Source: an uncultured Anaerolineales bacterium
Lineage (GTDB): Bacteria > Chloroflexota > Anaerolineae > Anaerolineales > UBA4823
Direction of reading: 5' to 3'
Assembly (NCBI GenBank): GCA_903872065.1
Contig: CAIQJJ010000212.1
Coordinates: 1-37,568, forward strand
DNA: 37,568 bases
The position numbers and the translations under genes are program-made. Each line of letters begins with the position of its first letter. The first letter of the stretch is position 1. The notes beneath the pieces are model-generated. The model was not told the DNA's origin and made no database searches. It was given only the letters and a program-made list of their open reading frames with translations. Positions 1,247-36,550 of the stretch are shown here, piece by piece.

Positions 1247-3472
1247 TTACTTGTAAACCGGCAGAGTTTCGGGGCGGTTCTGGGGCAGTTGCTGTTCAAC
1301 TGGCGTCCAGAGGGTATCCAACAGGACCGCATCCTCAACCCAGGTGTACATGAAGACCGGGGTGCCGGACGGAACGTTCTTGACACGCTTGGCAAGACCC
1401 AGGCCATAGCGCCCGACAAAGACGCCCAGATCATACACGTTTTCGGTGTAGATTTTGTTGTACTGAGCCATCAGTTCCTTGCGCTTGGCGACATCGAACG
1501 TGCTGCGGTACTCCGTCACCAACTTGACCAGTTCTTCTTCAAAGGGCAGCATCTCGCGAGGCGTCTCGCCTTCGCGATGGCGGGTGAAGTTGGCGGTCAG
1601 GGGGGCAAGAGCAGTCACATTGACAAAGGGCAGCGCGAAGGGCTGTCCGCCGCGGAAGACCTGCATGTCCCAGTTGCCGGACTGGTTGATTTCGGTGAAG
1701 GCAGAGCTGGTGATAATGCGGTAGTTGATCTTGATGCCCACCTGCGCCCACTGGTTGACCAGGGCCTCAGCAACGCTTTGCGTCTCATGAGCATCTTCGG
1801 AAGCCAAGAGCTGCAATACCACATCCTGGCCAGCCTGCGAGCCTTCGGTCCAGTTCAAAACGCCGTTGTTATCCGTATCCTTAAGACCCATCTCAGCCAA
1901 AAGGGCTTTGGCGGATTCAACATCATACGGATAGTAGACCACAGAATTGCGATCGAATTCGGGAGCGCCCGGATACAGGCCGCCCGCCCACGCGCGCAGG
2001 AATGGGCCGCGCATGATGGACTGGGCAATACCTTCACGATCCGCAGCATAGCTCAAAGCCTGGCGGAAGCGCAGGTCGCGGAACAGTTGGCGGACTGCCT
2101 TGTCCCGATCGTTCTGGGTACCGACATCCACCGAGAAGTTGAACAAGACGCCATAACCCAGGGTTTCAGGGCCCCAGGTAACCTGGTACTTGGCATCCGC
2201 TTCTTGGGCGGTGGTCATCGCCTCAACAAAGGTGCTGGGGTTCTCCAGGTTCATGTGATCGCAGTCGCCGGCGATGGTGCAAAGATCACGCCCAATGCCG
2301 CTGGGGCCTTTGCGGTACTGAATTTCATCGAAGTAGGGCAGTTGGTTGCCGGCTTCGTCTACTTTCCAGTAGTAAGGATTGCGGCGCATGATCATCAGTT
2401 CGTCGGTCTTGTATTCAGTGATCACCCACGGCCCCATGGTGACAAGGGGTAAATTGTCGGGGGCGAGGGCATTTTCAAAATCTTTATAGGTCGGCTTGGG
2501 GTCAGCCATGCTCCACTGGGGATGCAGGGATTTAAGCTGATGCGCCGGCATGACAACGAAGTTCTCGTCGTTCATCATGTAGTAGGCATCCAGCGGCTTG
2601 GCAACCGGGAAGGTGAATTTAATGGTGAAATCATCCACCTTCGCCAGGGTGGCGGGTTGGCCGTCCCAGCTCCAGGCATCCTGCTTGCGCGGGGCGTTCA
2701 CATTGGCGTCAAGAATGTAGCCTTCCCAGGTGAAGATGACATCATCGGCGGTGAAAGGCTGGCCATCCGACCATTTTGCGCCTTCGATCAGGTGCATGGT
2801 CAGTTCCTTGCCATCCGCAGACCACTCCCAGCTCTTGGCCAGTTCGGGCATCGGCTCAATATCCTGCGAGGCGCGATACAGCGGGCCGGTCTTCACCAGC
2901 GAGCCATAGCGAGAAGTGTAGGATTCGATGCCGAACCACCCCATGCTGACGCCAGCCATAATATTGTAGCCGGCGGTGGGGCAGGCCGAGAAGCCGCGCC
3001 ACAGATCGCCATAGACGCCAATGCCATCGGACATGCCACTGGTCAAGTAGACCTGCGGTTCTTTGGGCAGGCGATCCTTGACAGGAGGCAGCGTTCCATC
3101 GGCAACCAATTTGTCCATCCAGGCAGGCTGTGAATAGCTATCCAACGCCTTGTAGGTGACAATCTGGTCAATTGGCAGGCGCTTCACTTCCGCTCCGCCC
3201 AATTCCAGTTGGTTCGCTTCAGGATAGGGGATCGGAGGGACGACTTTCGCCGCGGCCGGCTCTTCGGGCGCCTTGGTGGCTTCGGGAGCTTTGGTCGGTT
3301 CAGCGGCTTTCGTCGCTTCGGGAGCTTTGGTTGGTTCAGCAGCTTTCGTGGCTTCAGGCGCTTTGGTGGCCTCTGGGGCCGGCGCTTGAGTGGCAGGGGT
3401 GGAGCAAGCTGCTAAGAGCATTGAAACCACCATAATCAGAGTCAACAACTTCCATGCAATATTGGACTTCAT
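1247..3472 (-). CDS. Family 5 extracellular solute-binding lipoprotein (SBP_bac_5)
   Basis: About 741-residue lipoprotein, the capture subunit of the Opp/Dpp-type importer encoded around it. The ATG at 3472 was preferred to one at 3517 because AGGAGA lies 8 nt upstream and the protein then begins with a normal lipoprotein signal ending in LLAACS (lipobox Cys about residue 23). A Pro/Ala/Thr/Lys linker made of PEATKA/AEPTKA units follows, typical of Chloroflexota lipoproteins. The rest is SBP_bac_5: a LAKSWEWSADGKELT segment, the WSDGQPFTADDVIFTWE motif, RNPYYWK, and a FRQALSYAADREGIAQ segment. It is longer than the usual 500-600 residues because of the linker and an insertion before the first SBP motif. 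Family members bind peptides, nickel, oligosaccharides or sialic acid; the sequence alone does not say which. Confidence 0.93.
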   Translation of the reverse strand: MKSNIAWKLLTLIMVVSMLLAACSTPATQAPAPEATKAPEATKAAEPTKAPEATKAAEPTKAPEATKAPEEPAAAKVVPPIPYPEANQLELGGAEVKRLPIDQIVTYKALDSYSQPAWMDKLVADGTLPPVKDRLPKEPQVYLTSGMSDGIGVYGDLWRGFSACPTAGYNIMAGVSMGWFGIESYTSRYGSLVKTGPLYRASQDIEPMPELAKSWEWSADGKELTMHLIEGAKWSDGQPFTADDVIFTWEGYILDANVNAPRKQDAWSWDGQPATLAKVDDFTIKFTFPVAKPLDAYYMMNDENFVVMPAHQLKSLHPQWSMADPKPTYKDFENALAPDNLPLVTMGPWVITEYKTDELMIMRRNPYYWKVDEAGNQLPYFDEIQYRKGPSGIGRDLCTIAGDCDHMNLENPSTFVEAMTTAQEADAKYQVTWGPETLGYGVLFNFSVDVGTQNDRDKAVRQLFRDLRFRQALSYAADREGIAQSIMRGPFLRAWAGGLYPGAPEFDRNSVVYYPYDVESAKALLAEMGLKDTDNNGVLNWTEGSQAGQDVVLQLLASEDAHETQSVAEALVNQWAQVGIKINYRIITSSAFTEINQSGNWDMQVFRGGQPFALPFVNVTALAPLTANFTRHREGETPREMLPFEEELVKLVTEYRSTFDVAKRKELMAQYNKIYTENVYDLGVFVGRYGLGLAKRVKNVPSGTPVFMYTWVEDAVLLDTLWTPVEQQLPQNRPETLPVYK
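3236..3412 (-). repeat. Low-complexity coding repeat (PEATKA/AEPTKA linker)
   Basis: Within the solute-binding lipoprotein gene the DNA repeats units of about 18 nt (CTTTGGTNGCTTCAGGNG-like on the plus strand), encoding PEATKAPEATKAAEPTKAP-type sequence. It is the flexible spacer between the membrane-anchored Cys and the binding domain. The repeats are in frame and degenerate, as expected for a linker changing by slippage. Confidence 0.8.
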
Positions 3473-3655
3473 AAGATACTTCTCCTCAAGTTTCATAATG
3501 TTGGCTGGGGCATCCATTTTCCAGCCTGAACCTTTACAGGGATTCGCAGCACGGGATTGACGCCGCTGACAAGCATAGGATCAATTCCAGGCTGCATTTG
3601 CACGGTAAAGGTGTGCAATCAAGCGCAGGATGCTGCGCAGGTTTAAAATTTTGCT
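3473..3655 (-). other. Intercistronic gap with two small hairpins upstream of the solute-binding gene
   Basis: This 183-bp stretch separates the small membrane peptide gene from the solute-binding gene. It holds two inverted repeats: TTGCAC/GTGCAA (3598-3603 with 3613-3618) and GCGCAG/CTGCGC (3623-3628 with 3633-3638). Neither has a T-tract on the minus strand. The gap is long for this operon, so an internal promoter or processing site is possible, but I see no convincing -35/-10 pair. Confidence 0.35.
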
Positions 3656-3802
3656 TTACGCCTCCTTTCTGAAGAGTCTCAGACAAAACATCGCCGTGGC
3701 CGCAAAAAAAAGTGCAACGAGGCTCGTTCCAGCGACAAAGAGCATCGCCGCCATATAGAGCATCATCACAATTAAAAGCAGCGTGGCGATATAAAGTATC
3801 AC
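3656..3802 (-). CDS. Small (48 aa) hydrophobic membrane peptide, translationally coupled to the ATPase gene
   Basis: A GTG start (complement of 3800-3802) overlaps the TGA stop of the ATPase gene as GTGA, and AAGGG lies 6 nt upstream inside that gene. The frame gives 48 residues: about 40 almost uninterrupted hydrophobic residues (VILYIATLLLIVMM..., then a GTS break near 25-27, then LVALFFAATAMF) ending in a basic tail, LRLFRKEA, and TAA. The composition fits one long or two short transmembrane helices with the tail in the cytoplasm. I do not recognise the family. Its position between the ATPase and binding-protein genes suggests an accessory or regulatory peptide of the importer. It is too short for most gene finders. 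The overlap, SD and composition are seen in the sequence; the role is inference. Confidence 0.6.
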   Translation of the reverse strand: MILYIATLLLIVMMLYMAAMLFVAGTSLVALFFAATAMFCLRLFRKEA

Positions 3803-4857
3803 GATGACCCTTCGCCATACAACCAACAAGATACCAGGCGTCCGGGTTGGACCTCGCGCAGATCTGGCTTGCGCTCATTGCAAATGCTCATCACGCGCGG
3901 ACAGCGCGGCCCAAATGGGCAGCCCGGAATGATCTCGGTGGGCGTAGGCACCATGCCAGAAATCGGCACAAGCACTTTCTTCCCCTTCTTGCCCAACACC
4001 GGCACCGAGTTTAACAGCCCTACGGTATAGGGATGGAGCGGCTGGCGAAACAAAGCATGGGTTTCAGAATATTCGACTATTTTACCCAGGTACATCACTG
4101 CCACATCGGCGGCCATCTGCGAAACAACGCCCAGGTTGTGGGTAATCAGAATGATGGACGAATTAAAGTCGGCCTGAAGCTGATTCATCAGATCCAAGAT
4201 TTGCGCTTGAACGGTGACATCCAGGGCAGTGGTCGGCTCATCGGCAATCAGGATCGAGGGGTTGCAAGAAAGCGCCATTGCGATCATGACGCGCTGCCGC
4301 ATGCCTCCACTCAACTGATGCGGGTATTCCTGCAAGCGCTGCTTGGGGGCGCTGATCTGCACCTTGGTGAGCATTTCCAGGGCGCGATCGAGCGCCTCTT
4401 TGCGCCCTACGCGTTGATGAATGGTCACTACCTCAGCGATCTGATCGCCAACGGTGTAGAGGGGGTTGAGAGAGGTCATCGGTTCCTGGAAAACCATGGC
4501 GATCTCGCCGCCGCGGATGCTGCGCATCTTTGAGCCGCGCGCATCCAGTTTCGCAATATCCACCATCGTGTGATCGTGGCGCAAATACAAATTGATCTCC
4601 CCTGAAACGATCTTGCCCGGCGGCGACTGGATCAAGCGCATGATGGACATGGCGGTGATGCTCTTGCCGCAACCACTCTCGCCAACCAACCCCAGAGTAG
4701 ATTTACGCTTTAGACTTAAATCCACCCCATCCACCGAACGCACTGTTCCTTTTTCGAGAAAGAAATAAGTTTTCAGGTCTTTAATTTCGAGCAAGGGAGC
4801 CGCCTCGAAACTTGCCGCAGGAGAGGATAGGATAGAAGAAGAGGAAGAATCAATCAT
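3799..4857 (-). CDS. ABC transporter ATP-binding protein, DppD/OppD type
   Basis: 352-residue ATPase that powers the Opp/Dpp-type importer at the cytoplasmic face. Walker A is GESGCGKS (59-66), the Q-loop is VFQEPMTSLNP (about 122-132), the signature is LSGGMRQR (182-189), Walker B is ILIADEP (202-208) and the H-loop is THN (239-241). The C-terminal oligopeptide-transporter extension is present (PISGMVPTPTEIIPGCPFGPRCP, about 298-320), with the paired cysteines usual in DppD/OppD. The first 20 residues are a Ser/Ala-rich leader of no clear function. The start is 3 nt after the receiver gene's stop, with only a weak SD, so translation is probably coupled. Importers of this kind usually have a second ATPase (DppF); none is visible here and it may lie beyond the left edge. 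Confidence 0.94.
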   Translation of the reverse strand: MIDSSSSSILSSPAASFEAAPLLEIKDLKTYFFLEKGTVRSVDGVDLSLKRKSTLGLVGESGCGKSITAMSIMRLIQSPPGKIVSGEINLYLRHDHTMVDIAKLDARGSKMRSIRGGEIAMVFQEPMTSLNPLYTVGDQIAEVVTIHQRVGRKEALDRALEMLTKVQISAPKQRLQEYPHQLSGGMRQRVMIAMALSCNPSILIADEPTTALDVTVQAQILDLMNQLQADFNSSIILITHNLGVVSQMAADVAVMYLGKIVEYSETHALFRQPLHPYTVGLLNSVPVLGKKGKKVLVPISGMVPTPTEIIPGCPFGPRCPRVMSICNERKPDLREVQPGRLVSCWLYGEGSS

Positions 4858-4860
4858 AGC

Positions 4861-5280
4861 TTATTTTCTCAGAATTTGGTGCAGCGCATCGTGCAATTCG
4901 GTTGGCAATACAGGTTTCACCAGATAAATCACTGCGCCCATTTCCAGGCCGCGGCGGCGCTCATCCAAGGAACTACATAACAGAATGGGAATAGTTTTGT
5001 GTTTCAAGCTGCGCTGAATCGCCTCAAGCAACTCCCAGCCTTGCCCACCACCCCAATCCGGTTCCATGATCACGGCGCGCACCCCAGTTTGCTGAACCAT
5101 TGCCAGCGCTTCTTGCTTGTTCAAGGTGCCTAACACATCATATTCAGTGCTTAACTCCCGTGAGTACAATTCTAGCGTTGGCAAATCATCTTCAACAATG
5201 ACAATCGTTGGACGAAGATCGGGGGAGCGGCGCTCATGCACGCCATCTACCCCACCTTTACCGAATTTGCCGGTGGGCAT
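4861..5280 (-). CDS. Stand-alone receiver domain with Glu at the phosphoacceptor position
   Basis: 139-residue CheY-like protein with no output domain. The ATG at 5280 was chosen over 5295 because GAGGAG lies 7 nt upstream. The fold elements are in order: beta1 with the acidic patch (IVIVEDD), beta4 LLCSS with the switch Ser, and the conserved Lys in YLVKP. Aligning IMEPDWGGGQGWELL with the usual LLDLMMPGMDGWELL puts Glu, not Asp, at the phosphoacceptor site, with a new Asp two residues on. Asp-to-Glu can mimic phosphorylation, so this is probably a constitutively active or phosphorylation-independent receiver. It lies between the sensor gene and the transporter genes, 3 nt before the ATPase, so it may link sensing to uptake. 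The promoter candidate is at 5370-5398. Confidence 0.85.
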   Translation of the reverse strand: MPTGKFGKGGVDGVHERRSPDLRPTIVIVEDDLPTLELYSRELSTEYDVLGTLNKQEALAMVQQTGVRAVIMEPDWGGGQGWELLEAIQRSLKHKTIPILLCSSLDERRRGLEMGAVIYLVKPVLPTELHDALHQILRK

Positions 5281-5437
5281 ACAGAGACTCCTCAACAGTG
5301 ATCGGGCGGTTGTCTATCTCGCCGCCGCGTCCAGCCAGTCTAATGCGTTTCAGGCTGTCAGATGGTTTTACTATACAAAATTGTAAGGTATCTGTCTTGG
5401 ACAATACACCGAGATTCTTGGATAAAAGAACGATGAA
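5281..5437 (-). promoter_or_regulatory. Promoter candidate and operator-like palindrome upstream of the receiver/transporter genes
   Basis: On the minus strand AAGACA (complement of 5393-5398), a 17-bp spacer and TATAGT (complement of 5370-5375) form a plausible sigma-70-type promoter, giving a leader of about 80 nt. The spacer and -10 contain CTTACAATTTTGTATAG (complement of 5371-5387). This closely resembles the palindrome CTTACAAATTTGTAAG in front of the subtilase gene (26354-26369). A regulator binding here would block the -10. Confidence 0.45.
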
Positions 5438-8400
5438 TCAAGAGCGGCGGTACTCCTGCGGCGAAACGCCCATCTGTTTGCGAAAGACGCGGCTGAAATA
5501 CGCCGGATCGTCAAACGCGACCTGAGAGGCGATCGCTGTGACGCTCAAGGTTGTGGCGCGCAGCAGTTCACAGGCTTTTTGAATTCTCAAACGGCTCAAA
5601 TATTCCCACGGGGTCAGGCCCACTTCCTGGCGAAAAATTTGCGTCAGGTAGTTTTCCGTGACGCCCACCGCGCTGGCAACTGCGGCGCGGGAGAGGGTCT
5701 GTTGGTAATTTTGCTGCAAATAGGCCAGGGCATGCCGCGCCAGGGCGCTGGTGGAACGTGAAAGGGGATTTTCACCATGAAAAGCCTGCTGCAAAATATC
5801 GGCTGTTTCCTCAGTCGTCAGGATATTTTTCGGCTGAAAAGTCACTTGAGCATAATCCAGGCGTTGGATATCTTCAAAGGTCAGCATTTTTCCACTCAGC
5901 ACGACCACCGGCGCGTTTTGCGTCAGCGGCGAGGCGCGTAAAGCTTCAAGCACCTGAAAGCCATTGACCTGAGGCATCATCAGATCGAGCAGCACCAACC
6001 CAGGCGCTTGCTCTGGGGCTTTCACCTGCGCCAACAAACCCAGCGCCTGCGCCCCATCTGCGGCCGTCAAAATCTCAAGATCAAGAAAGACCTGACTCGC
6101 CAGCGATTGGTAGAGCAGGCGCGCCTCAGGATCATCATCTACAATCCAAACCGGACGACAGGAGAGCGAGGGGCGCAAGCCATCAAAAATCTCGCGCAGT
6201 TCGCGGATCGGGACAGGCTTGAGAAGGACGTTGGTCAAAGCGCCGCCCTCTGGGGATGAGGAAGAGGCGGCGCCAGCATACAGCACGAAAGGCAGGCGAG
6301 CGCAGGCTGGCTGCCGGCGCAAACGCTGGATCAGACTCCATTCCCGCGAGGTGGTTTGGCGGGCGGCGGCGGCGGCCATATCCCAAACCAGGGCGACCGG
6401 CTGGGCCTGCTCAAACAAATCTTCGATGCGATCGCCTGGCGCGAGCGAATAAGTTTCTACCGAGACGGAAGATGAAGCGGCAAAAGGAGGAAAATGGCGC
6501 GCCGCGGCGAATGATTTGACTTCTGATAAAACAGGTTTGCTTTGAGGAAACTGCTTCTCACTGGAGATCCACACGATCACCGGCCGTTTCGCGCCGCCGG
6601 CTTCCGCCCCATTCCATGCGGCGGCGCTGACGATTGAAGTCTGCTCGCCGCTGAGATCAGGCAAAGGGAAATAGACGTGAAAAATACTGCCCTGCCCCGG
6701 CTGACTTTGCAATAAAATATCGCCGCCATGCAAGGTAACCAGGCGGCGCGTGATGGTTAGCCCCAGCCCCACCCCCTCGCTGCGACGATGGGAGTAGTCG
6801 CTGGTGACAAATGGCTCAAAAATGCGTTCCTGCTGCTCAATTGGAATACCTGGGCCGGTATCCTGCACCCAAAGATGCAGGTACGGCGGCTCTACCTCCG
6901 CGCCCAGAGCAATCTGGCCGGCAATGGTGAATTTGCTGGCGTTATTGAGCAAATTCAACACAATCTGGCGCAGGCGGATCGGGTCGGCGTGAATCAGCGG
7001 CAGACGTTCGGGAATATCCAACTTCCAGTTCAGCTCTTCACGCGGCGACAAACTATTCACAAAACTCTCGAAGGTTTGCGCAAGCAAGCCGGCCGGCTCA
7101 ACCACTTCCAAAGCCAGGTCCAGCGCCCCGATCTCGGCGCGGGAGAGATCGAGCAGGTCGTTAATAATATGGTAAAGATGTTCGCCGCTCTGCAAAATAT
7201 ATTCCAGGTCGCGGCGCAGCGCGGGCGGCAGTTCCACCTGGTAGGGATTGGGCGCGCCCAACGCCGACTGGCTGTAGCCCATAATGATATTGAGCGGTGT
7301 GCGCAGTTCATGGCTCACATTCGCCAGTAAGCGCGTCTTCAAGCGATCGCCGGCTTCCGCCGCGGCGCGCGCTTGCAGGGCCTCGGCATACAACTCAGCA
7401 TTGCGCATGGCGACGCCCAATTGATCGGCCAACGCCTGCAATCCCACCAAATCCTGGCGCGCATGGCGCATGGGTTGGCGGCTGTGCAGGTCTAGCACCC
7501 CGGAAATGCTTCCACCCCAGTGGATCGGCAGCGCCACGCGCGAGCGCATTTCAGCCCATTCGGGTTCAGGGGAAAAACGGTAGCTGTAACGAGTATCGGG
7601 GATAAAAACTGGGGCGCGGCGCTGCACCACCTGCGCCAACAAGCCGGCCTGGGCCAAAGGAACGGCCTGGGCAGCGCCAGGGCGTATGCCGCTGGAGCCA
7701 TAGGGAGTAAACATCTGCTCCGCCTCGTCCCACAAGAACAAACGCACCGCATCGTAACCGTAGTTGGTACGGATCAGGTTCGCGATTTCATGCGAAAGCT
7801 GAGCGCGATCCAAAATAGCTCCCACGCGGCGGCTGATGGCCATGCTGGTTTCAAGCTGCAGCAGGCGGTCTTGTTCTTGGCGCAGGCTGCCCCCCACCAA
7901 TTGGCTGGGCAAATCGGCAATCTCTTGCAATTTCTTGACACTGCGCTCCAACGCGTTTTCCGCCACAACCCACTCAAACTTGCAAAAGCGATAATTGTTG
8001 ACAATTTTGCCACGCGCAGATTGAAGCGCCAGGTCAACCACCTGGGCGGCGATGTCCACGGGCGAGGTTTCCACCGTTGCGGTCATCCTGCCCTCGGCGA
8101 TTGCCGCCAACGCCAAAGGATCGCCGTTGACGCCAACAATGATTGTCCTGGCGTTCACCAGGCCTAAAGACTGCCCGGCATCGCGCGCCGCCAATGCGAG
8201 CGAGTCAGACAGGCCAAAAATGGCGTCAGGCGCGGTGTCCCAACCGCGCAGCATCATCTTTATACTGGGCAGCGCGTCTTCATAGCGCCAAAACGTAGGG
8301 CAGTGCACGACCGAAATACCGGGAATTTTCGAGAGGACATCATAAAAGCCGGCGACGCGCGAGATGCCCTTATCGCTGCCGGCATCCAACAACCCGCCAA

Positions 8401-8803
8401 CGCAAAGGACGCGCCCCTGCCCGTGCAGCCGCTCAACGATCAATTCCCCCGCCATCCGGCCCACCTCATAAAGCCCGGAGGGCGCGGTCAACAGGGCATG
8501 CTGCAAATGGGTTTCACTCAGGTAAACGATCGGCAGACCGCTGTTCAAAACCTGGTAGACAACCGGATCGGTGAGATCATTGCTGATCAAGACACTTAAA
8601 TCGCAAGCCAGGATTTCCTCCGCCGCGCTTTCGGTGTCTACCAGAGAGAAAGCCCGCTCACTGTTCACGATTTGGAGCGGCACAACCGTCACATCATGTA
8701 AACTGAGCTTGCGCAGCACCGCCTCGCGCATCTGCACCCAGAACGGGTCGCCAGGGAAAACATGCACCCCAATCCGCAGGTGGGATGAGTCGGCTTCTTT
8801 CAT
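5438..8803 (-). CDS. Soluble sugar-binding-domain / GAF / hybrid histidine kinase / receiver / AraC regulator
   Basis: 1121 residues with no signal peptide or TM segment. Domains in order: Peripla_BP_4/LacI-like binding fold (about 8-280: VFPGDPFW, VGGLLDAGSDKG, VGVNGDPLAL); coiled linker; GAF (about 320-470); HisKA with phospho-His 498 (VSHELRTP); HATPase with N-box LNLLNNA (616-622), DTGPGIP (648-654) and GVGLGL (677-682); a degenerate receiver (about 740-870) lacking the acidic pair; a canonical receiver (884-1005: DDD 889-891, Asp940, Ser970, Lys992); and an AraC/XylS double HTH (about 1020-1120). Ligand sensing, a full phosphorelay and DNA binding thus lie in one cytosolic chain. It resembles Bacteroides HTCS regulators without the membrane. 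It starts 12 nt after the Asp-box gene and probably controls this sugar locus. Confidence 0.92.
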   Translation of the reverse strand: MKEADSSHLRIGVHVFPGDPFWVQMREAVLRKLSLHDVTVVPLQIVNSERAFSLVDTESAAEEILACDLSVLISNDLTDPVVYQVLNSGLPIVYLSETHLQHALLTAPSGLYEVGRMAGELIVERLHGQGRVLCVGGLLDAGSDKGISRVAGFYDVLSKIPGISVVHCPTFWRYEDALPSIKMMLRGWDTAPDAIFGLSDSLALAARDAGQSLGLVNARTIIVGVNGDPLALAAIAEGRMTATVETSPVDIAAQVVDLALQSARGKIVNNYRFCKFEWVVAENALERSVKKLQEIADLPSQLVGGSLRQEQDRLLQLETSMAISRRVGAILDRAQLSHEIANLIRTNYGYDAVRLFLWDEAEQMFTPYGSSGIRPGAAQAVPLAQAGLLAQVVQRRAPVFIPDTRYSYRFSPEPEWAEMRSRVALPIHWGGSISGVLDLHSRQPMRHARQDLVGLQALADQLGVAMRNAELYAEALQARAAAEAGDRLKTRLLANVSHELRTPLNIIMGYSQSALGAPNPYQVELPPALRRDLEYILQSGEHLYHIINDLLDLSRAEIGALDLALEVVEPAGLLAQTFESFVNSLSPREELNWKLDIPERLPLIHADPIRLRQIVLNLLNNASKFTIAGQIALGAEVEPPYLHLWVQDTGPGIPIEQQERIFEPFVTSDYSHRRSEGVGLGLTITRRLVTLHGGDILLQSQPGQGSIFHVYFPLPDLSGEQTSIVSAAAWNGAEAGGAKRPVIVWISSEKQFPQSKPVLSEVKSFAAARHFPPFAASSSVSVETYSLAPGDRIEDLFEQAQPVALVWDMAAAAARQTTSREWSLIQRLRRQPACARLPFVLYAGAASSSSPEGGALTNVLLKPVPIRELREIFDGLRPSLSCRPVWIVDDDPEARLLYQSLASQVFLDLEILTAADGAQALGLLAQVKAPEQAPGLVLLDLMMPQVNGFQVLEALRASPLTQNAPVVVLSGKMLTFEDIQRLDYAQVTFQPKNILTTEETADILQQAFHGENPLSRSTSALARHALAYLQQNYQQTLSRAAVASAVGVTENYLTQIFRQEVGLTPWEYLSRLRIQKACELLRATTLSVTAIASQVAFDDPAYFSRVFRKQMGVSPQEYRRS

Positions 8804-8815
8804 CCTTACAGCAGA

Positions 8816-9931
8816 CTATTCTGGCAGTCGCCAGCGCGACCACAAGAGGGAACATTTGCGATCGCCGGGTACCTTCTGATAACAAATTGTAAACAGACTG
8901 CCATCCGCCAGTTCAACCGTGGCGGGATAGCCCAGGTCGCCATCCGGGCCATCGTCGCGGATGATCCAATCGTGATCCCAGGTGAGGCCGTCATCGCGGC
9001 TGATGGCGAGACGTTGGCCAAAGGCTGGCTGACGGTAGCCGTAGGTCAGCAGTAAGACGCCGGAGGAATGGCGCAGCAAATGCGGCGGCGAGCCATGAAA
9101 GCCAAGCGGGCGGGCGGTTGTCCAGGAACGCCCGCCATCATCGGACTCGGTTTGCATCAGGCTAAACGAGGGAATGCCCACCGGCTTGAGTTCCTTGCCG
9201 GGGGCGTCCTCAATGCGGATCATCCCCAACAAGCGCCCGTTGGGCAGTTCCACCAGGTGCGGCTCGTGATAATTGGCCGGGTCGCTGCCGGGATAGACCG
9301 GTACCTGCCCGGCCACCTCCCAGGCGCGCCCGCCATCGCGGCTGATGGCGGCGGTAATGATCGCATTTTCCATATCGGCCCAGCTTCCATAAGGCTTGCC
9401 CAGGTAAAGCAAAGTCCCGTCATGCAGCCTGATAGGCCCGTGCGGCGTTGAGACTGGCGCTCGCCGCGGGGCGCTCCAGGTATCCCCGTTATCCGCGCTC
9501 AACATGACCCAGGAGCCAATATGACGGGCGCAGACCTCATCGGTAACCGCGTCCAGGGTCGCCTGCCATGAAGCGACCTCTTCCTCGCCCAACCAATTGC
9601 GCAGCCACTCCTGCTGCGCGTATTGGCGCGTATCCGAGGTGAACCAGGTGACCAGCCAACTGCCGCCGCCCAGGTTGACAATGCCGGCGTCGCGATCGTC
9701 GAGCGGCGAGTTGTTAATAACGCGCGGTGCAGACCAGGTGCGCCCGTCATCCAGGCTGATGTTCAAAACCGTCTTGCCCCAGGGGCAAATATGTTCCGAG
9801 CGCAGTCCAGAACTGATCACCATCAGCGCGCCATCGTCGCCGCGCGCCACGGTTGGCCAGCCAAAATAACTGAGTTTCTCACCCGGCAGGCGGCAGATAA
9901 TGCCATGTTCAGCAGTCAAACGCTTGTCCAT
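8816..9931 (-). CDS. Asp-box (sialidase-superfamily) protein, cytoplasmic
   Basis: 371-residue six-bladed beta-propeller candidate. Five Asp-box/BNR-like repeats are visible: SLDDGRTW (about 59), SADNGDTW (about 145), SRDGGRAW (about 198), SDDGGRSW (about 265) and SRDDGLTW (about 317). Known sialidases (GH33) use three Arg, a Tyr/Glu pair and an N-terminal FRIP motif; here the equivalent position reads YFGWP, so the first Arg is absent and ordinary sialidase chemistry is doubtful. There is no signal peptide, so it probably acts on an imported oligosaccharide or glycoside. AAGGA 7 nt before ATG supports the start. It lies 19 nt after the previous Asp-box gene and 12 nt before the sensor gene. 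Common database labels would be sialidase family or exo-alpha-sialidase; the substrate is unknown. Confidence 0.88.
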   Translation of the reverse strand: MDKRLTAEHGIICRLPGEKLSYFGWPTVARGDDGALMVISSGLRSEHICPWGKTVLNISLDDGRTWSAPRVINNSPLDDRDAGIVNLGGGSWLVTWFTSDTRQYAQQEWLRNWLGEEEVASWQATLDAVTDEVCARHIGSWVMLSADNGDTWSAPRRAPVSTPHGPIRLHDGTLLYLGKPYGSWADMENAIITAAISRDGGRAWEVAGQVPVYPGSDPANYHEPHLVELPNGRLLGMIRIEDAPGKELKPVGIPSFSLMQTESDDGGRSWTTARPLGFHGSPPHLLRHSSGVLLLTYGYRQPAFGQRLAISRDDGLTWDHDWIIRDDGPDGDLGYPATVELADGSLFTICYQKVPGDRKCSLLWSRWRLPE

Positions 9932-9950
9932 CTTTTTTCCTTCATTCGGC

Positions 9951-11102
9951 TCAATCTATGGAAGATAATGCACTCAACGGGAAGCGGAGCGCCTCCACCG
10001 CCTCTTTTTGGCGCGAGACAATGATGTGCAGCGCGCCGGCATGAAGCAGTGTATGTGGATAGCCGTATTCGCCGCCCTTGTGCAGCCCATCCACGCGACG
10101 GAGATAAGGAGTATCGGCCAGGATATAATGTTGGTCAAATTCAATCCGGTTTTCATCCCCCATGCCGCTCGCCAGCGACAAGACCAACGGCGAGCGCTGC
10201 CAGCGCGGCGCCGGGTCAGGACAACCTACATAATAGAAGCGTCCGTCAGGCAAACGCCCGAAATGGAACTTGGCCGCATTATCGCTAAATTCAACCTGCC
10301 GCGGCGCTGACCAAGTGGCCCCATCGTCCAGGCTTTCCGTCAGCCACAGCCGCTCGACGTTACTGCGCAGCAGCATACACAGCGTCCCATCGCCGGTCTG
10401 GAAGAACGAACCTTCGCACAAGCCAGCCGGCCAGCCCATTGCGGCCTGCACCTGCCAGAAAGATTCAGAATCATCCACAATGCCGGCGGCCATAGATGGT
10501 GGATAGATGCCCGTCATGCGCCAGCCGCTTAACCCAGCCGGGTCATCTGTGTAGGGAAAGCTAATATTGCCGCTGATGATCAAACGCCCGGAAGCCGTAG
10601 GCTGCGGCCCATGATTGGGCACAATTGGCAAATGCAAATCGTGCGGGCCATCCCAATGGACTCCATCTGTTGTAACCAGCGCTAAAAGGGTCGTGTCCTG
10701 GTGGCCGCTGTCGCTAGGATGGCGCTGACCATGCTCTAATGCCTGGGGGCGATATTCGTAACAGCCAATATAAGCCGCCAACCGGCCGGCGTGCTGGTGA
10801 AAGCCGGCCGCGGTCAGCACCAACTCGCTGTGTTTCCCCATTTGCACATCCAGCAGCGGCGCCGGCGGCGACCATTCGAGGAAATCGCTTGAAGTTGCCA
10901 GCAGCACACGCTGACCGGGCGCATCCTCATCGCGCCGGCCGTTCGACCAGATGGCGTAGAAGCGACCTTTGAAATAAGCCAGGTGCGGGTGATGAGAGTA
11001 GCTCCACTCCCGCTCAGGCTGATAAAGCCAGGCGCGCGCAAGAGGCAAACGCGCCGCGGCGGATGGGCGGTAACTGGCATTGGCGACGTTGAACCGATTC
11101 AT
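9951..11102 (-). CDS. Divergent Asp-box / beta-propeller hydrolase-like protein
   Basis: 383 residues, soluble, no signal peptide. Only one clear Asp-box (SLDDGATWS, about 263-271) and two degenerate ones (TSSDFLEWS, TTDGVHWDG) are visible, but regular F/Y-W and GRL/GRF turns suggest a propeller of the sialidase or glycosyl hydrolase 43/32-like class. Polar clusters that could line an active site include SYSHHPHLAYF (about 34-44), NHGPQPTASGRL and EGSFFQTGDG. The ATG overlaps the stop of the upstream aldolase gene as ATGA, so the two are translationally coupled and probably act in the same pathway. It belongs to the same broad class as the genes at 8816-9931 and 12191-13318 but is clearly not a recent duplicate of either. 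Enzymatic function is unassigned. Confidence 0.8.
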   Translation of the reverse strand: MNRFNVANASYRPSAAARLPLARAWLYQPEREWSYSHHPHLAYFKGRFYAIWSNGRRDEDAPGQRVLLATSSDFLEWSPPAPLLDVQMGKHSELVLTAAGFHQHAGRLAAYIGCYEYRPQALEHGQRHPSDSGHQDTTLLALVTTDGVHWDGPHDLHLPIVPNHGPQPTASGRLIISGNISFPYTDDPAGLSGWRMTGIYPPSMAAGIVDDSESFWQVQAAMGWPAGLCEGSFFQTGDGTLCMLLRSNVERLWLTESLDDGATWSAPRQVEFSDNAAKFHFGRLPDGRFYYVGCPDPAPRWQRSPLVLSLASGMGDENRIEFDQHYILADTPYLRRVDGLHKGGEYGYPHTLLHAGALHIIVSRQKEAVEALRFPLSALSSID

Positions 11103-12061
11103 CCAACCTCCTGCAGAGTGGACGGAACGCCAGCCGGCAGGCGGCTTTTTACCTCCGCCAGTTCCGCCAGCAGACAGTCATGCACAAGCTGTTCTTCGCC
11201 AGGCGGGCTGGCTGCGGCAACTGACACGCGGCAGGCATCGCTGAGCGGCAGGCCGCGGCGCTGCAAAAAGACTTTGGCAGACTGCGGATAGCGCGGCCGG
11301 ATGACAACATCCCACAAGGTCAGGAGACGCTGCAAGGCAGCCGCCTCTGGGGGGTAAGCGGCATAATTGCGGCACAACCAGGCGAAAAGCTCCGGGTATA
11401 AATTGGCCGCTGTGCCGCTGTAGCCATCGCCGCCGGCCTGCAGCGAGGATAGCAGGGTAGGCACATGGGCATTAAACCAGCGCAGCGGAGTTCCATGCAC
11501 GGCAGCGATCTTGGCGCGTTCGGCCTCTGCATCGCAGCAGGTGTCCTTCATCCAGACAAAACGCCCGGTACGCGCCGCCCAGGACAACAATTCCACCGAG
11601 AGCCGGCGGTGATAGGGCGCCGGGCATTCATACAGTCCCAAGGGAACAGCCGCGGTTTGGTCGAGAAACTCAGCCACGTGCGCCTGCCAGACCGCATCCG
11701 GATCGTCCGCCTCGGCAAACTGGTTGACAACCAGAACCACCGCCGCGACGCCGGCCTCAGCCAACCGGCGGGTGAACTGCGCCTGGGATTGCAGCGAGCC
11801 GCCAAATACTCCCGCCGCTATCACCGGCGCACGCCCGGCCGCCCGCCGCGCCACCCGCCCGGCCAGGGTCAGGCGCTCCTCCTCATTTAAATGATACATC
11901 TCACTGGAGAGACAGACGGCGAACAAGCCCTGCGCGCCATTATCCAGGTACCAATCTGTCAGAGCATCCACGGCGGGCAAATCCAGGCTCAAATCCTGCC
12001 GAAAGGGAGTTAACATGACCGGCCAAAGTGTTTTGTGATTGATTGAAATGGTGTTCATCAT
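11099..12061 (-). CDS. Dihydrodipicolinate synthase / N-acetylneuraminate lyase family aldolase
   Basis: About 320-residue class I aldolase (TIM barrel). With the ATG at 12061, the Schiff-base Lys is K172 (FVWMKDT) and the catalytic Tyr is Y144 (LGLYECP). The pyruvate-carboxylate loop is CLSSE (about 50-54), equivalent to GTTGE/GSTGE, followed by the family pattern NEEER. The family cleaves or forms 2-keto acids by pyruvate addition; members include DapA, NanA and KDG aldolases. YECP and SSE, and the catabolic neighbours, argue against lysine biosynthesis. A longer frame to 12124 exists, but the conserved barrel starts at LWPVMLTPF, so 12061 (or the adjacent ATG at 12058) is preferred; the SD is weak. 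It heads the minus-strand unit and overlaps the next gene by 4 nt. The sugar acid cleaved is not known. Confidence 0.88.
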   Translation of the reverse strand: MMNTISINHKTLWPVMLTPFRQDLSLDLPAVDALTDWYLDNGAQGLFAVCLSSEMYHLNEEERLTLAGRVARRAAGRAPVIAAGVFGGSLQSQAQFTRRLAEAGVAAVVLVVNQFAEADDPDAVWQAHVAEFLDQTAAVPLGLYECPAPYHRRLSVELLSWAARTGRFVWMKDTCCDAEAERAKIAAVHGTPLRWFNAHVPTLLSSLQAGGDGYSGTAANLYPELFAWLCRNYAAYPPEAAALQRLLTLWDVVIRPRYPQSAKVFLQRRGLPLSDACRVSVAAASPPGEEQLVHDCLLAELAEVKSRLPAGVPSTLQEVG

Positions 12062-12190
12062 ATACTTTTCAAATCTCTTCCCTTTCGCATTGTAACACGT
12101 CTCACAATAAAATCTTATTGACAAAAACGGGGTTCATTGGCACACTTTGGGTATCCAAAACTTGAAAACAAGCCACAGAAAGGCGATTTT
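12062..12190. promoter_or_regulatory. Divergent control region with operator-like palindrome
   Basis: The 129 bp between the aldolase and third Asp-box genes hold an 18-bp imperfect palindrome, TTGTGAGACGTGTTACAA on the minus strand (12090-12107), with 7 of 9 half-site positions symmetric. It resembles LacI-family or CRP-type operators and overlaps a minus-strand TACAAT -10 candidate (complement of 12089-12094). Immediately beside it is CAATAA-AATC-TTATTG (12105-12120). A perfect -35, TTGACA (12118-12123), points toward the plus-strand gene but has no good -10 at 17 bp. The layout suggests joint control of both directions. Confidence 0.5.
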
Positions 12191-29537: not shown

Positions 29538-30539
29538 ATGGACAAAAAAATAATCATCACGTTATGCCTGATCATGGCTTTCTTATGGACAGCCTGCAGC
29601 AAACCAACTTCTGACACGTCTTTGCTGGCCTCACAAAGCACCCCCGTCGAAGCGCAGCCAGAAGCCTCCCCCGAAACCAAAAAATACACCATTGCTTTAG
29701 TGATGAAAACATTGACCAATCCTTTCTTTGTCGAAATGGAAAAAGGCGCGCGCCAGGCAGAGAAGGAATTTGGAATTAATTTGATCGTCAAAACAGGCGC
29801 TCAGGAAACCTCGGTTGAACAGCAAATCACGATCATTGAAGAGCTGATTATTGACAAAAAGGTGGATGCGATCTTGATCGCGCCAGCCGACTCGGTGCAG
29901 TTGATCCCGGTCTTGAAAAAGGCGCAGGAGGCCGGCATCGTGATCATCAATCTCGATAACATTCTGGACGCGCAGTCTATGGAAAAAGTCGGTTTGACCG
30001 GCGTACCCTTCATCAGTGTTGATAACGAGAAGGGCGCGTATCTTTCGGCCAGTTACATCAGCGCCAAAGTCACCACACCCACCCAGGCCATTATTTTGGA
30101 AGGTATTCCAACCGCCAAAAATGCGCAAGATCGCAAAGCCGGCGCGGTCAGAGCCTTCGGTGAGAATTCCAATATTAAAATCGTCGCCTCAGAAACCGCC
30201 CATTGGAAGATTGACGAGGCCAACCAGGTGACCGCCCAATTGTTCAAGCAGTATCCTGATGTCAAGCTGATTTTCTGCGCCAATGACATGATGGCTTTCG
30301 GCGCGATTCAGTACTTGAAGGAAAGCGGCAAGACCGACGTGCAGGTAGCTGCGTATGACGCCCTGGCAGAGGCCATGCCCATGCTCAAAGATGGCACGCT
30401 GCAGGCTACGATTGACCAACAGGCTGCTCAACAGGCTTATACCGGCGTGCAGTTTGCGATTCGCGCCCTGAACGGTGAAACACTACCGCCGCTCACCTTG
30501 CTGGATGTCCTTCTGGTGACGCGTGAAAATGCTAAGTAA
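29538..30539 (+). CDS. Sugar-type substrate-binding lipoprotein (Peripla_BP_4), orphan
   Basis: 333 residues. Signal MDKKIIITLCLIMAFLWTAC gives lipobox Cys20; a Ser/Pro/Glu linker follows. The binding domain is the ribose/galactose-binding type: YTIALVMKTLTNPFFVEMEKGA (about 50-71), IIDKKVDAILIAPAD (about 110-124), an AGIVIINLD element, EGIPTAKNAQDRKAGA, and a VQVAAYDALAEAM hinge/binding segment near residue 275. AAGGAG before ATG supports the start. No permease or ATPase gene accompanies it. Instead its 3' end overlaps a membrane histidine-kinase gene, so it probably presents a sugar or similar ligand to that kinase, in the manner of LuxP-LuxQ or TorT-TorS. The ligand cannot be read from the sequence. 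Confidence 0.92.
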   Translation: MDKKIIITLCLIMAFLWTACSKPTSDTSLLASQSTPVEAQPEASPETKKYTIALVMKTLTNPFFVEMEKGARQAEKEFGINLIVKTGAQETSVEQQITIIEELIIDKKVDAILIAPADSVQLIPVLKKAQEAGIVIINLDNILDAQSMEKVGLTGVPFISVDNEKGAYLSASYISAKVTTPTQAIILEGIPTAKNAQDRKAGAVRAFGENSNIKIVASETAHWKIDEANQVTAQLFKQYPDVKLIFCANDMMAFGAIQYLKESGKTDVQVAAYDALAEAMPMLKDGTLQATIDQQAAQQAYTGVQFAIRALNGETLPPLTLLDVLLVTRENAK

Positions 30540-33162
30540 GCTCAAATCGTTTTTGCGCACGCCCAGCCTGGCGTTCACCCTGAGCGTTTTCCTGGGATTG
30601 GCAAGCGTGCTGCCATTAATGGTGCTGGGCATTATCTCCGATAATGTCTCACGCACCGTTATTGAGCAAGACGTGACCAATTACGCGCAGGCATTGGTCA
30701 GTGCGCAAAGAGATTATCTGGATGTACTTTTCCAGGAAATTGAAAGCCTGATCGTCAATATTTCAGGGGTCGAGGAGATCAAAACCGCGATTGATGATGC
30801 AGCAAGCTCTCCAGATGAATTTACCCGCCTGGCAACCCATGCCAGGATCGGGTATATTCTAAGCGGCTACAGCGGGGTCAAAGGGTTGGTATCGCTGGAT
30901 ATCTTCACGCCTGGCAAAGCGCATTATCACGTCGGCGATACGCTGAATGTCCAAGAGATTGACCAGGCCGCATTGGATAAAATCAAAGTCTATACCTGGG
31001 CCTCGGACAACCTGGTGACCTGGGTGGGGGTGGAAGATAATGTCAATATCAATTCCACCCATCGCAAAGTGATCACCGCCGCCAGGCTGTTTCAAATCAT
31101 TGACCCCATCTCGCTGGAAGAAGAGCCCGGCGCATTACTGTTGGTGAATTACAGTGTGGACGATCTGTATAGCCATTTTGCAACCTTGAAACTGGGCGCC
31201 GACGCTTACTTCATGGTCATAGACAACGAGGGACGGTTGGCTTACCATCCGAACCGCGCCTATATCGGCGCCCAAATTTCGCAAACATTTCTTGACAAAC
31301 TAACCAACGAGAGTGTGGTGACTGAGGTAAACGGCGAAAAAATGCTGGTGACGCACACCCATTCCACCGTCAATGGTTGGCTGGTCGTCAGCTTGAATCC
31401 CTATCGCAACCTGACCGCCAGCGCGGATACCATCCGCCGGATTACGCTTATGGTGCTGCTCTTCAGCTTCGCCTTTATCGCGGTGATGTTTTGGATCGTC
31501 GCCTACGCCATTGTCCAACCGCTGCGACAAATCACTGAGTCGTTTCAGAAAATCCAAACCGGAGATTTTGACTGGCATTTACGTTTGAACGTGAAACGTT
31601 CAGATGAAATTGGCGAGTTGATGCGCTGGTTCAACACGTTCCTGGATGGCCTGGAGGCGAAAAACCAGGCCGAACAGGAGCTGCTGCGCGCCAAAGAAGC
31701 CGCCGAAGCCGCCAACCGCGCCAAAAGCGTCTTCCTGGCCAATATGAGCCATGAACTGCGCACCCCTCTGAATGCAATTCTAGGCTTTAGTGAGCTTATG
31801 GTGCACGATAACGGCCTTACCCCGACCCAGAGCGAAAACCTGGGCATGATCAACCGCAGCGGAGAACATCTGCTTGGCCTGATCAATGACATTCTCGACC
31901 TATCCAAAATTGAATCCGGGCAGATCGAGTTTCGTTCGCACACCTTTGATCTGTATCGCATGTTGAAAGGCCTGGGCGAAATGTTTGAGTTTCGCGCCAG
32001 GCAAAAAGGGTTAAAGCTGGTGGTTGAATACACTCCTGATGTTCCCCGATACGTGAACACAGATGACGGAAAGCTGCGCCAGGTGCTGATTAATTTAATG
32101 GGTAATGCCATCAAATTTACGCGCGCCGGCTCTGTCTTGCTAAAGGTGAGCGTCGGCAGCCGGGATGAGCGGCTGATTGCCCTGACCGGGCATGGACAGG
32201 AAGACGCCCCTTACCAACATCGCTTACGCTTTGCGGTCGAAGATACTGGTGTGGGGATTGCCAAAGAAAATTTTGCGCAGATGTTTGAACCTTTTGTACA
32301 GTTGGAAGAGGGGAAAAAGATGCAGCAAGGCACCGGACTGGGATTATCCATCAGCCGGCAGCATGTGGAACTGCTGGGCGGCAAACTCGAGGTGCAAAGC
32401 GAACCGGGGGTAGGCTCCACGTTTAGCTTTGAAATCCCGGCCCTGCCTGGCTTTGAGGATGAGGTGTTCGCAGCAGATGAAAAAGTGATTGGGATAGCGC
32501 CCGGGCAAAGCGCTCCAGATGGCGGGCCTTTCCGTTTGCTGGTCGTCGAAGATGTGGACGCCAACCGCAACCTTCTGGTCAAACTGCTGAATGTCTTTGG
32601 CTTTGAGGTGCGTGAAGCGGTGAACGGACAGGCCGCGCTGGAGATTTGGGAATCGTGGCAGCCGCACCTGATTTTTATGGATCTGCGCATGCCGGTGATG
32701 GATGGTTTTGAGGCGACACGGCGCATCAAAGCCGCCCCACAAGGCCCAAAAACGATCATTGTTGTCTTGACGGCGCATGTTTTTGATGAAGGCCAGGCAT
32801 CCATCAAAACCCTGGGCTGCGACGATTTAATTCATAAACCCGTGCGCGAGAGTGAAATCGTGCAAGTCTTGCGTCAACACCTGGATGTGGAATTTATCGC
32901 CAGAGGCGGCGCAGCAAAGACCGTCGAAGGGGCGTCCGCCCTGGCTTCAACGGCCGTTCCCACCGGCGCAGAGCAAAAGGTTGTCCTCCCCGAAAATTGG
33001 AAGGAGAGAATGCGCCAGGCAGTCATCGAAGCGGATATTGTATTGATGCAAGAATTAATTGGCGAGATTGAAACCAGCGCCCCAGTGTTAAGCCAAGAAC
33101 TGGCGCAAATGGTATATCACTTCAACTATAACGGCATCTACACATTGATAGATACGTTGTGA
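30529..33162 (+). CDS. Membrane hybrid histidine kinase with Cache-like sensor
   Basis: 877 residues from ATG 30529 (GTG 30523 is also possible); the start overlaps the lipoprotein gene by 11-17 nt. In GTG numbering: TM1 about 18-38, a dCache-like extracytoplasmic domain (about 40-300, including AYFMVIDNEGRLAYHP), TM2 about 306-330, HAMP (about 331-385), a coiled coil, HisKA with H410 (MSHELRTP), HATPase (N-box INLMGNA, DTGVGIA, GTGLGL), a receiver with Asp720, Thr750 and Lys772, and a helical C-terminal domain (about 823-879, LPENWKERMRQAVIEADI...). No DNA-binding domain, so a phosphate acceptor elsewhere is needed. Pairing with the upstream binding lipoprotein is inferred from the overlap and domain type. 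Confidence 0.93.
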   Translation: MLSKLKSFLRTPSLAFTLSVFLGLASVLPLMVLGIISDNVSRTVIEQDVTNYAQALVSAQRDYLDVLFQEIESLIVNISGVEEIKTAIDDAASSPDEFTRLATHARIGYILSGYSGVKGLVSLDIFTPGKAHYHVGDTLNVQEIDQAALDKIKVYTWASDNLVTWVGVEDNVNINSTHRKVITAARLFQIIDPISLEEEPGALLLVNYSVDDLYSHFATLKLGADAYFMVIDNEGRLAYHPNRAYIGAQISQTFLDKLTNESVVTEVNGEKMLVTHTHSTVNGWLVVSLNPYRNLTASADTIRRITLMVLLFSFAFIAVMFWIVAYAIVQPLRQITESFQKIQTGDFDWHLRLNVKRSDEIGELMRWFNTFLDGLEAKNQAEQELLRAKEAAEAANRAKSVFLANMSHELRTPLNAILGFSELMVHDNGLTPTQSENLGMINRSGEHLLGLINDILDLSKIESGQIEFRSHTFDLYRMLKGLGEMFEFRARQKGLKLVVEYTPDVPRYVNTDDGKLRQVLINLMGNAIKFTRAGSVLLKVSVGSRDERLIALTGHGQEDAPYQHRLRFAVEDTGVGIAKENFAQMFEPFVQLEEGKKMQQGTGLGLSISRQHVELLGGKLEVQSEPGVGSTFSFEIPALPGFEDEVFAADEKVIGIAPGQSAPDGGPFRLLVVEDVDANRNLLVKLLNVFGFEVREAVNGQAALEIWESWQPHLIFMDLRMPVMDGFEATRRIKAAPQGPKTIIVVLTAHVFDEGQASIKTLGCDDLIHKPVRESEIVQVLRQHLDVEFIARGGAAKTVEGASALASTAVPTGAEQKVVLPENWKERMRQAVIEADIVLMQELIGEIETSAPVLSQELAQMVYHFNYNGIYTLIDTL

Positions 33163-33196
33163 ACTGGCGCGGCAGCAAATTCACGGAGTATGCAGT

Positions 33197-36100: not shown

Positions 36101-36550
36101 GCCGCGGCCTTAAACCAGCCCAACAACCCCGTGATGGTGATCGGGGAAAATGCATCGGCGGCGTTGGTATTGATGGCCGATGACAATGAATTGATCCTGG
36201 AAACCCTCACTGACTTCTTGGAAACGCGAGGCTGTCGCACCGTCGCCACACGCAGCGGGTTTGAACTGCTCAAGCGCGCTCCCGAACTTCACCCCGACAT
36301 CATTTTGGTAGATATCCAAATGCCCGGCATGGATGGCATAGAAACGATCCGCCGCCTGCGCGCCCACAGCGACCCGGCCATCGCCTCCCTACCGATTATT
36401 GCGGTGACGGCCCTGGCGATGACCGGCGATCGTGAGAAATGCCTGCAAGCCGGCGCCAATGAGTATATGAGTAAGCCAATTGCTCTGACACAACTGGTAG
36501 AACAGATCAACAAGTTTTTGAAAGCAAAAAGAGGGGAAGGACAGAAATAA
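33197..36550 (+). CDS. Soluble hybrid kinase: receiver-PAS-GAF-PAS-HisKA-HATPase-receiver-receiver
   Basis: 1117 residues, no TM. Start supported by GGAG 8 nt upstream. Domains: REC1 (12-130, Asp60, Lys112), PAS (about 158-275), GAF (about 285-445), coiled coil, PAS (about 463-585), HisKA with H620 (MSHELRTP), HATPase (N-box VNLLSNA 734-740, DKGIGIA 769-775, GTGLGL 799-804), REC2 (857-970, Asp906) and REC3 (990-1108, Asp1039, Lys1093). The N-terminal receiver suggests it is itself controlled by an upstream kinase, plausibly the membrane hybrid kinase encoded 34 bp before it; the terminal receivers would pass phosphate on. There is no DNA-binding output. A close paralogue of REC1 begins the next gene. 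Confidence 0.93.
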   Translation: MMKTSPASPKADILIVDDTPDNLRLLNQILSKYYKVRLAPSANIGLTAARSAPPDLILLDVMMPEINGYEVAAQLKSEKQTQEIPIIFISALNDIENKVRGFSAGGVDFVTKPFQEEEVLARVKTHLMLRSLYKQAQAEIVEGKIGLESERKRADEKNAQLAAIVEYSDDAILSQTLQGVVFSWNRGAERIYGYTEEEISGKESSLLVAPGHEGEMLKILTKIGLGTSVEHYETEHRRKDGQVIAMSLTASPIRDQEGNIIAASLIGRDITQSKQAEKNAIYRQQLLEKVIQLGKNVTQITDLKLCLHEIYRSVKYELGFDRVGLFLYDSATNMIHGVRGTSRQGMPEDTSWFSEEGSQKSAWHKALHTPSGIVVDDYQTTFNPPETNEMYDVKQYITLAAWAGDKPVAVISADNVISQREMNPADLEALQLFAGYAGLAIENARMNAELERRVEERTAEVRQNEAIYRALFENSNDGIFLYAPNGEELQANPQALKMLGYTLEEYQSVVAANPRRSLTSAEQSESEPRFQAVLRGEQTPLYERNFMAKDGKRVDVEVNLSAVRDASGRIVLVQSVMRDITERKKAEAVLRESRDKLSAANAALENASRMKDEFLASMSHELRTPLTGILGLSETLQLQTYGVLNVRQLKAVKNIESSGRHLLELINDILDLSKIEAGKLDMQFAPCAVADICQASLQLVKGMASQKKQSVGFSMNPVSIMVHADARRLKQILVNLLSNAVKFTPSGGQLGLEVAANEAEKAIAFCVWDKGIGIAPENLGKLFKPFVQLDSSLARQYSGTGLGLSLVQRMAEMHGGSVTVESKPGEGSRFTVFLPWSAATSQSAPELPLQNPNVLKNALIIEDNVLDAENITRYLKELGMTNIVQPTINGALEKAAAMQPSAILLDLHLPDGSGMDLLSQFKTDARTREIPVIITSVEERRREAAKLGALGYLVKPFTLQELHTELSKAAALNQPNNPVMVIGENASAALVLMADDNELILETLTDFLETRGCRTVATRSGFELLKRAPELHPDIILVDIQMPGMDGIETIRRLRAHSDPAIASLPIIAVTALAMTGDREKCLQAGANEYMSKPIALTQLVEQINKFLKAKRGEGQK

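Follow-up and report, generated by a model that had tools for sequence, protein, structure and literature searches.

The window analysed here (the whole stretch of 37,568 nucleotides, from an uncultured Anaerolineales bacterium) encodes on its minus strand, at 5438-8803, a protein of 1121 amino acids that is probably (at about 0.7) a cytosolic activator of the AraC type, acting as a single protein under ligand control and devoted to the importer operon beside it. This reading was built from features of the sequence, namely the domains, the solubility and the active residues of the protein, a conserved gene order and a direct repeat phased with a promoter. We consider as new a soluble build with all parts in one chain, conserved as a family, and its close link, accompanied by a phased predicted operator, to ABC importers, together with a partner receiver of the Glu type and a natural series of domain losses. 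Neither this architecture nor such regulators in these organisms were found in the literature covered, which left subscription papers largely outside and weighs little on novelty.

Architecture, solubility and fold of the regulator

The earlier note had placed the gene correctly, but without a strand: it is read from 8803 to 5438, a stop directly upstream of 8803 closing the reading frame at once. A plus-strand reading of the same interval was ruled out by its many stops and its lack of any open frame. Organised as Peripla_BP_4-GAF-HisKA-HATPase-pseudoREC-REC-HTH_AraC, the product gave Pfam matches, all over the cut-off, to Peripla_BP_4 (residues 111-266), GAF (332-465), HisKA (489-557), HATPase (607-715), Response_reg (885-983) and HTH_18 (1043-1120). 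The domains extend, all on the minus strand, over 7904-8791 for the RbsB/BT1754-like sensor (residues 5-300), 7379-7873 for GAF (311-475), 6644-7378 for HisKA and HATPase (476-720), 6194-6586 for a degenerate receiver (740-870), 5789-6166 for a canonical receiver (880-1005) and 5441-5746 for the AraC-type DNA-binding domain (1020-1121). The domain set claimed in the earlier note is therefore present, with profiles and predicted fold supplying the degenerate receiver. Pfam revealed no LacI-type HTH N-terminal to the binding-protein-like domain, the sensor being assigned to Peripla_BP_4.

No signal peptide or membrane helix was seen in the regulator by a 19-residue hydropathy scan, the maximum of which (1.26) lies below the values of a lipoprotein signal, a membrane kinase and a permease taken from the same window (2.2-3.1). 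Likewise, no membrane segment was detected among the 44 ORFs that were checked (maximum 2.06). Since no stretch of the protein is as hydrophobic as the signal or membrane segments of its neighbours, we place all of its parts in the cytosol, as had been proposed.

In the window protein, the active residues His498 (7310-7312), Asp889/890, Asp940 (5984-5986), Ser970 and Lys992 are intact, and the His, the N and G boxes and the acidic pair, Asp, Ser/Thr and Lys of the receiver are present there as in the other receiver-bearing members, from which functional phosphotransfer would be expected in these forms. The region at about 740-870 had no Pfam match. Its profile gave weak matches to the true receiver (E 6e-3 to 0.2), the receiver profile matched it in one member (L112, E 8e-3), and its predicted fold followed a receiver-like order of strands and helices, at a model confidence that is only moderate there. 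The acidic pair is absent, while Asp808 and Lys862 are present in the window protein and a Trp-Asp at strand 3 and a Lys-Pro are kept in the family, with single-member exceptions. Sequence and model together identify this region as a worn-out receiver. With this dead first receiver and no HPt domain among the Pfam matches, the protein falls outside multistep phosphorelays; a strict His-Asp-His-Asp relay is overstated because HPt is absent, and the ‘whole phosphorelay’ of the earlier note is likewise too strong, the more so as relatives without receivers, and even without the His, keep the same gene place.

The structure prediction suggested in the earlier note returned a sugar-binding-protein fold for the sensor (AF2 model from a 28-row alignment, mean pLDDT 89.6). 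By Foldseek and VIA-align, the model groups with the sugar-binding proteins of ABC importers (Z 27-29), including those for ribose (2ioy) and myo-inositol (4irx), 4yo7 and the fructose domain of BT1754 (2x7x), with Z 28-29 against RbsB-type proteins and 2x7x. The sequence profile agrees with this placement, and the sensor matches the ribose-contact residues only in part. Both model and profile support a descent of the sensor from sugar-binding proteins, the nearest being RbsB-type proteins and the BT1754 fructose domain.

Long and short builds of the family

A search of 396 genomes of the class with residues 1-301 separated family members (E under 1e-28) from ordinary binding proteins (1e-16 and weaker), and further searches brought in a second order of the phylum. 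The family came from these whole-genome searches, a single-protein scan of named genomes having returned only kinase-level relatives. Among the 43 loci read, 39 members were complete or near-complete, and the same soluble build was found in dozens of genomes; as architecture, residues and gene order are repeated in all of these, the architecture is not a product of chance. Twenty-seven members have a long build (ORFs of 1037-1205 aa) with both receivers, and 12 a short build (716-917 aa) without receivers, in which the AraC domain directly follows the kinase. At L066 (8228-11531), an in-frame stop splits the regulator into a sensor-GAF part (465 aa) and a kinase-AraC part (634 aa), and at L110 the frame stops within the kinase; these are either true split genes or sequencing errors. 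The window genome also holds two paralogues, L002 and L003, with the same kinase-receiver-receiver-AraC chain and a different LacI-like N-terminal sensor, and four of its six HTH_18 matches lie in kinase/receiver fusion proteins.

In all 27 long forms the His and the ATP-binding boxes are retained, as is the phospho-acceptor Asp of the second receiver. By contrast, five of the 12 short forms have lost the catalytic His or its partner acid: the His is absent in four, replaced by Gln in L074, L076 and L078 and by Glu in L111, while HE has become HG in L073, and L078 has also lost most of its ATPase domain. The difference between long and short forms gives a Fisher P of 0.006 or 0.0014, with relatedness ignored. 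HisKA domains at large lack the His in 0.9% of cases (PMC12632262), far below the 4/12 found here (binomial 3e-6, again ignoring relatedness), and in the present family His loss is concentrated in receiver-less members. Relatives without receivers or His nevertheless keep the same gene place, and several keep a recognisable operator. As far as these sequences tell, the His-Asp step is dispensable for the family as a whole, because receiver-less members exist, and phosphotransfer would matter in the long forms, because selection keeps its residues there. The two observations that the earlier note had set against its own reading, a missed membrane segment and the loss of key residues in all homologues, were looked for and not found in the receiver-bearing forms.

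An alternative for which these losses speak is a conformational switch throughout the family, in which the kinase core would be an ATP-dependent or mechanical linker and the receiver of the long forms would only tune the response. Such a switch would also accommodate L074 and L076, which lack the His and keep a recognisable repeat, with a -10 box again 18 bp away in L074, as well as a stand-alone receiver (see below) whose Glu cannot take phosphate in the usual way. Complete retention of the His, the ATP-binding motifs and the receiver Asp in the receiver-bearing members, and the contrast between the two builds, argue against it, and we regard it as unlikely for the whole family. For the short forms taken separately, a conformational path would likely replace phosphotransfer within the locus.

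A first tree of 27 rows suggested a single loss of the receivers. On 39 rows, the sensor-GAF tree gave two to three changes for the short forms, of which well-supported branches force just one, so that one to three losses are possible. We put at about even odds that the family forms a natural deletion series, leading from a one-chain His-Asp regulator to a phosphorylation-free transcription factor with the kinase core as a conformational relay. In this series, the receivers would go first, next the phospho-acceptor His and finally, in one member, most of the ATPase domain, leaving the sensor, the AraC domain and the position of the gene, and in several members also the spacing between operator and promoter.

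Importer operon, stand-alone receiver and predicted operator

An ABC importer adjoins the regulator at 38 of the 40 loci with enough flank, and belongs to the Opp/Dpp (10 loci), CUT1 (22) or CUT2 (6) type. It lies nearly always directly downstream on the same strand, and is divergent in part of the second order. In the window, its genes, all on the minus strand and assigned by Pfam, encode an OppD-type ABC ATPase (3799-4857), an SBP_bac_5 lipoprotein (1247-3517) and an OppB-type permease (103-1098); a 114-aa ORF overlapping them (3534-3878) has no family match and is probably not a gene. At four CUT1 loci (L065, L071, L074 and L084), the importer genes are regularly followed by one for an FG-GAP / UnbV-ASPIC repeat protein. 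At L120, L121, L123 and L030, the frame just behind the regulator gene opens like the HTH of a LacI-type repressor (e.g. MPKARVTIEDVARAC), and one importer may be controlled there by both an activator and a repressor. A second sugar-sensing set, of an ordinary kind, lies elsewhere in the window (29538-36550): after a periplasmic Peripla_BP_4 protein come a hybrid kinase of the membrane (dCache, HAMP) and a kinase that has PAS/GAF domains and several receivers.

Between regulator and importer, the first gene behind the predicted operator (4861-5280, minus strand, starting at ATG 5280 rather than TTG 5295) encodes a small stand-alone receiver without effector domain, in which Glu (5062-5064) occupies the phospho-acceptor position. 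Such a receiver adjoins the regulator at 26 loci, window included, with Glu in 25 and Asp in one (L109). Eight of these are short-form loci carrying the Glu type, and therefore have no classical phospho-acceptor Asp in either protein. This conservation beside the regulator suggests a working partner, perhaps one that docks on the kinase to damp or set it. The regulator is thus probably not autonomous, and the action ‘without partner proteins’ foreseen in the earlier note does not fit a Glu-type receiver that is a conserved neighbour within the target operon. An autonomous regulator of the HTCS kind, with a sensor, one His-Asp transfer and DNA binding and no partner, would find all needed residues in this one chain, and the CUT2-linked members indeed lack the stand-alone receiver gene; we nonetheless judge it improbable in view of the 26 loci that have one. 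Glu is the commonest Asp replacement in aspartate-less receivers (26%; PMC4395418), which our stand-alone receiver resembles in this respect. Unlike pseudo-receivers generally, it is, without any effector, the fixed operon partner of one regulator family.

Because the regulator gene adjoins importers, the imported solute is its natural candidate ligand. The pocket motif at residues 226-229 (within VGVNGDP in the window protein, with Asn226) is NGDP at all cleanly read Opp/CUT1 loci, save one NGDL, and GGNP, GGTP or GASP at all six CUT2 loci and exactly in the CUT2-linked members, as if sensor specificity tracked importer type. A sensor copied from the adjacent CUT2 binding protein was considered and rejected, the two having no close similarity. 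Many kinases sense small molecules through GAF domains, and this domain is kept in every complete member, which might point to GAF as the true sensor, with the RbsB-like domain merely docking or dimerising; strongly conserved pocket motifs that shift with the importer are unexpected for a mere scaffold, making this quite improbable. Sugar is not certain as the ligand of the window regulator, since it adjoins an Opp/Dpp-type importer, and peptides are often the cargo of this type. Directly upstream of the regulator, a DHDPS-family lyase and two BNR (sialidase-like) proteins are encoded (8816-12124, minus strand), probably in one operon with it given a gap of 12 bp. As a possible pathway clue, they hint at an acidic sugar, and the importer type also allows peptides.

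The gap behind the regulator gene contains a predicted operator (5394-5425, minus strand), a direct repeat TTATCCAA-N13-TTGTCCAAGAC with a 21-bp period, and a -10 box TATAGT (5370-5375, minus strand) exactly 18 bp behind it. In a test that assumed no motif beforehand, direct repeats were in excess in the family gaps solely with a period of 21 bp (z 11.9 relative to other periods). The family consensus is TTnTCCAA-N13-TTnTCCAAGAC, the second half-site being longer; TTGTCCAA occurs in 10/29 gaps, compared with at most 5 for the most frequent 8-mer in shuffles, and operator scores of at least 14 in 22/38 gaps, compared with 0.11 in shuffles. Behind the second half-site, a -10 box TAnnnT stands at offset 18 in 18/24 sites and at any other offset in at most two. 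AraC-type activators usually bind at the position of the -35 element, and the 18-bp spacing implies that the repeat stands in for this element. About a third of the gaps have no clear repeat, including those of L029, L073, L112 and most of the divergent g351 clade.

Within its genome of 7.5 Mb, the window operator has no second perfect copy. A wider regulon was rejected, near-sites with 2-3 mismatches being about as frequent as in a reversed control (17 and 11 matches in all). Across 392 genomes, the operator plus -10 pattern, which was derived from those same loci, gave 20 matches, 12 of them at family loci, and 8/9 perfect matches fell at family loci, the reversed control giving 1. Of the two DNA targets put forward earlier, 5281-5437 holds the predicted operator and 12062-12190 holds no site. 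The paralogue L002 adjoins a CUT1 importer, preceded by what looks by eye like a similar operator arrangement with 18-bp spacing, and this operator code may be a wider property of the kinase-AraC chassis. That the stand-alone Glu-receiver, a conserved first gene of the operon, should be the real output while the AraC domain acts elsewhere is very hard to reconcile with its lack of an effector domain and with the location of the genome's only good operator, at the promoter in front of this very gene.

Proposed mechanism and relation to known regulators

Under our preferred reading, a ligand-controlled activator of the importer operon, the RbsB-like domain would bind a small polar solute, which is most likely either the compound taken up or one formed early from it, and closure of the domain would be relayed via the GAF domain and the kinase dimer. 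In the long form, His498 would phosphorylate Asp940, freeing the AraC domain, which would bind the repeat at 5394-5425 in the -35 region and recruit RNA polymerase to the promoter with its -10 box at 5370-5375. Transcription of the Glu-type receiver gene and the Opp-type importer would thereby be activated rather than repressed, and more importer would provide a local positive feedback on uptake.

The HTCS regulators of Bacteroides, to which the earlier note had likened this protein, also gather a sensor, HisKA/HATPase, a receiver and an AraC domain in one chain, and for BT1754 (HTCS_Fru) the sensor family is common to both (COG1879/Peripla_BP_4), 2x7x being a top structural match. Their AraC-type sites are direct repeats with a period of 20-21 bp (PMC3878776), which our predicted operator, with its 21-bp period, resembles as a prediction only. 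However, HTCS, reported from Bacteroidetes alone, sit in the membrane and have their sensor in the periplasm (PMC3878776), whereas the present regulator is entirely soluble, has a GAF domain and a dead receiver beside the canonical one, and has an ABC importer as its predicted target. The likeness holds for the one-chain domain set and not for the membrane-crossing periplasmic sensor, and the regulator is therefore not filed as an HTCS.

Intracellular ligand sensing by this fold has long been known from the LacI family and from E. coli XylR, so that the relocation of the sensor to the cell interior, pointed out in the earlier note, is not new in itself. XylR joins a cytosolic PBP/LacI-fold sensor to an AraC domain, without GAF, kinase or receiver, and activates a sugar importer operon; its entry 4fe4 was among the matches through its AraC part. 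The window protein, with its kinase and receiver, differs from such a direct fusion, the nearest approach in the family being L078, and the receiver-less members look like steps towards a XylR-like protein. Vibrio cholerae ChiS is comparable in that this hybrid sensor kinase reportedly has a DNA-binding activity of its own and governs the use of a sugar (Klancher 2020, cited in PMC11856585). It differs in being membrane-bound, in its other DNA-binding fold and in having no sugar-binding-protein domain inside the cell.

Our results carry the logic of a fused sensor, kinase and regulator over from receptors in the membrane to a nutrient sensor that is soluble and intracellular, and they provide a regulator code for the importers of organisms in which few circuits have been worked out. 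They also give a fixed operon role to the Glu-type stand-alone receiver, a class whose mechanism was called a mystery in a 2025 review (PMC12632262). Finally, with matched proteins that either have or lack the receivers and the His, and one short, well-phased predicted operator, this family offers a clean setting in which to ask whether a histidine kinase core can drive a DNA-binding domain without phosphate transfer.
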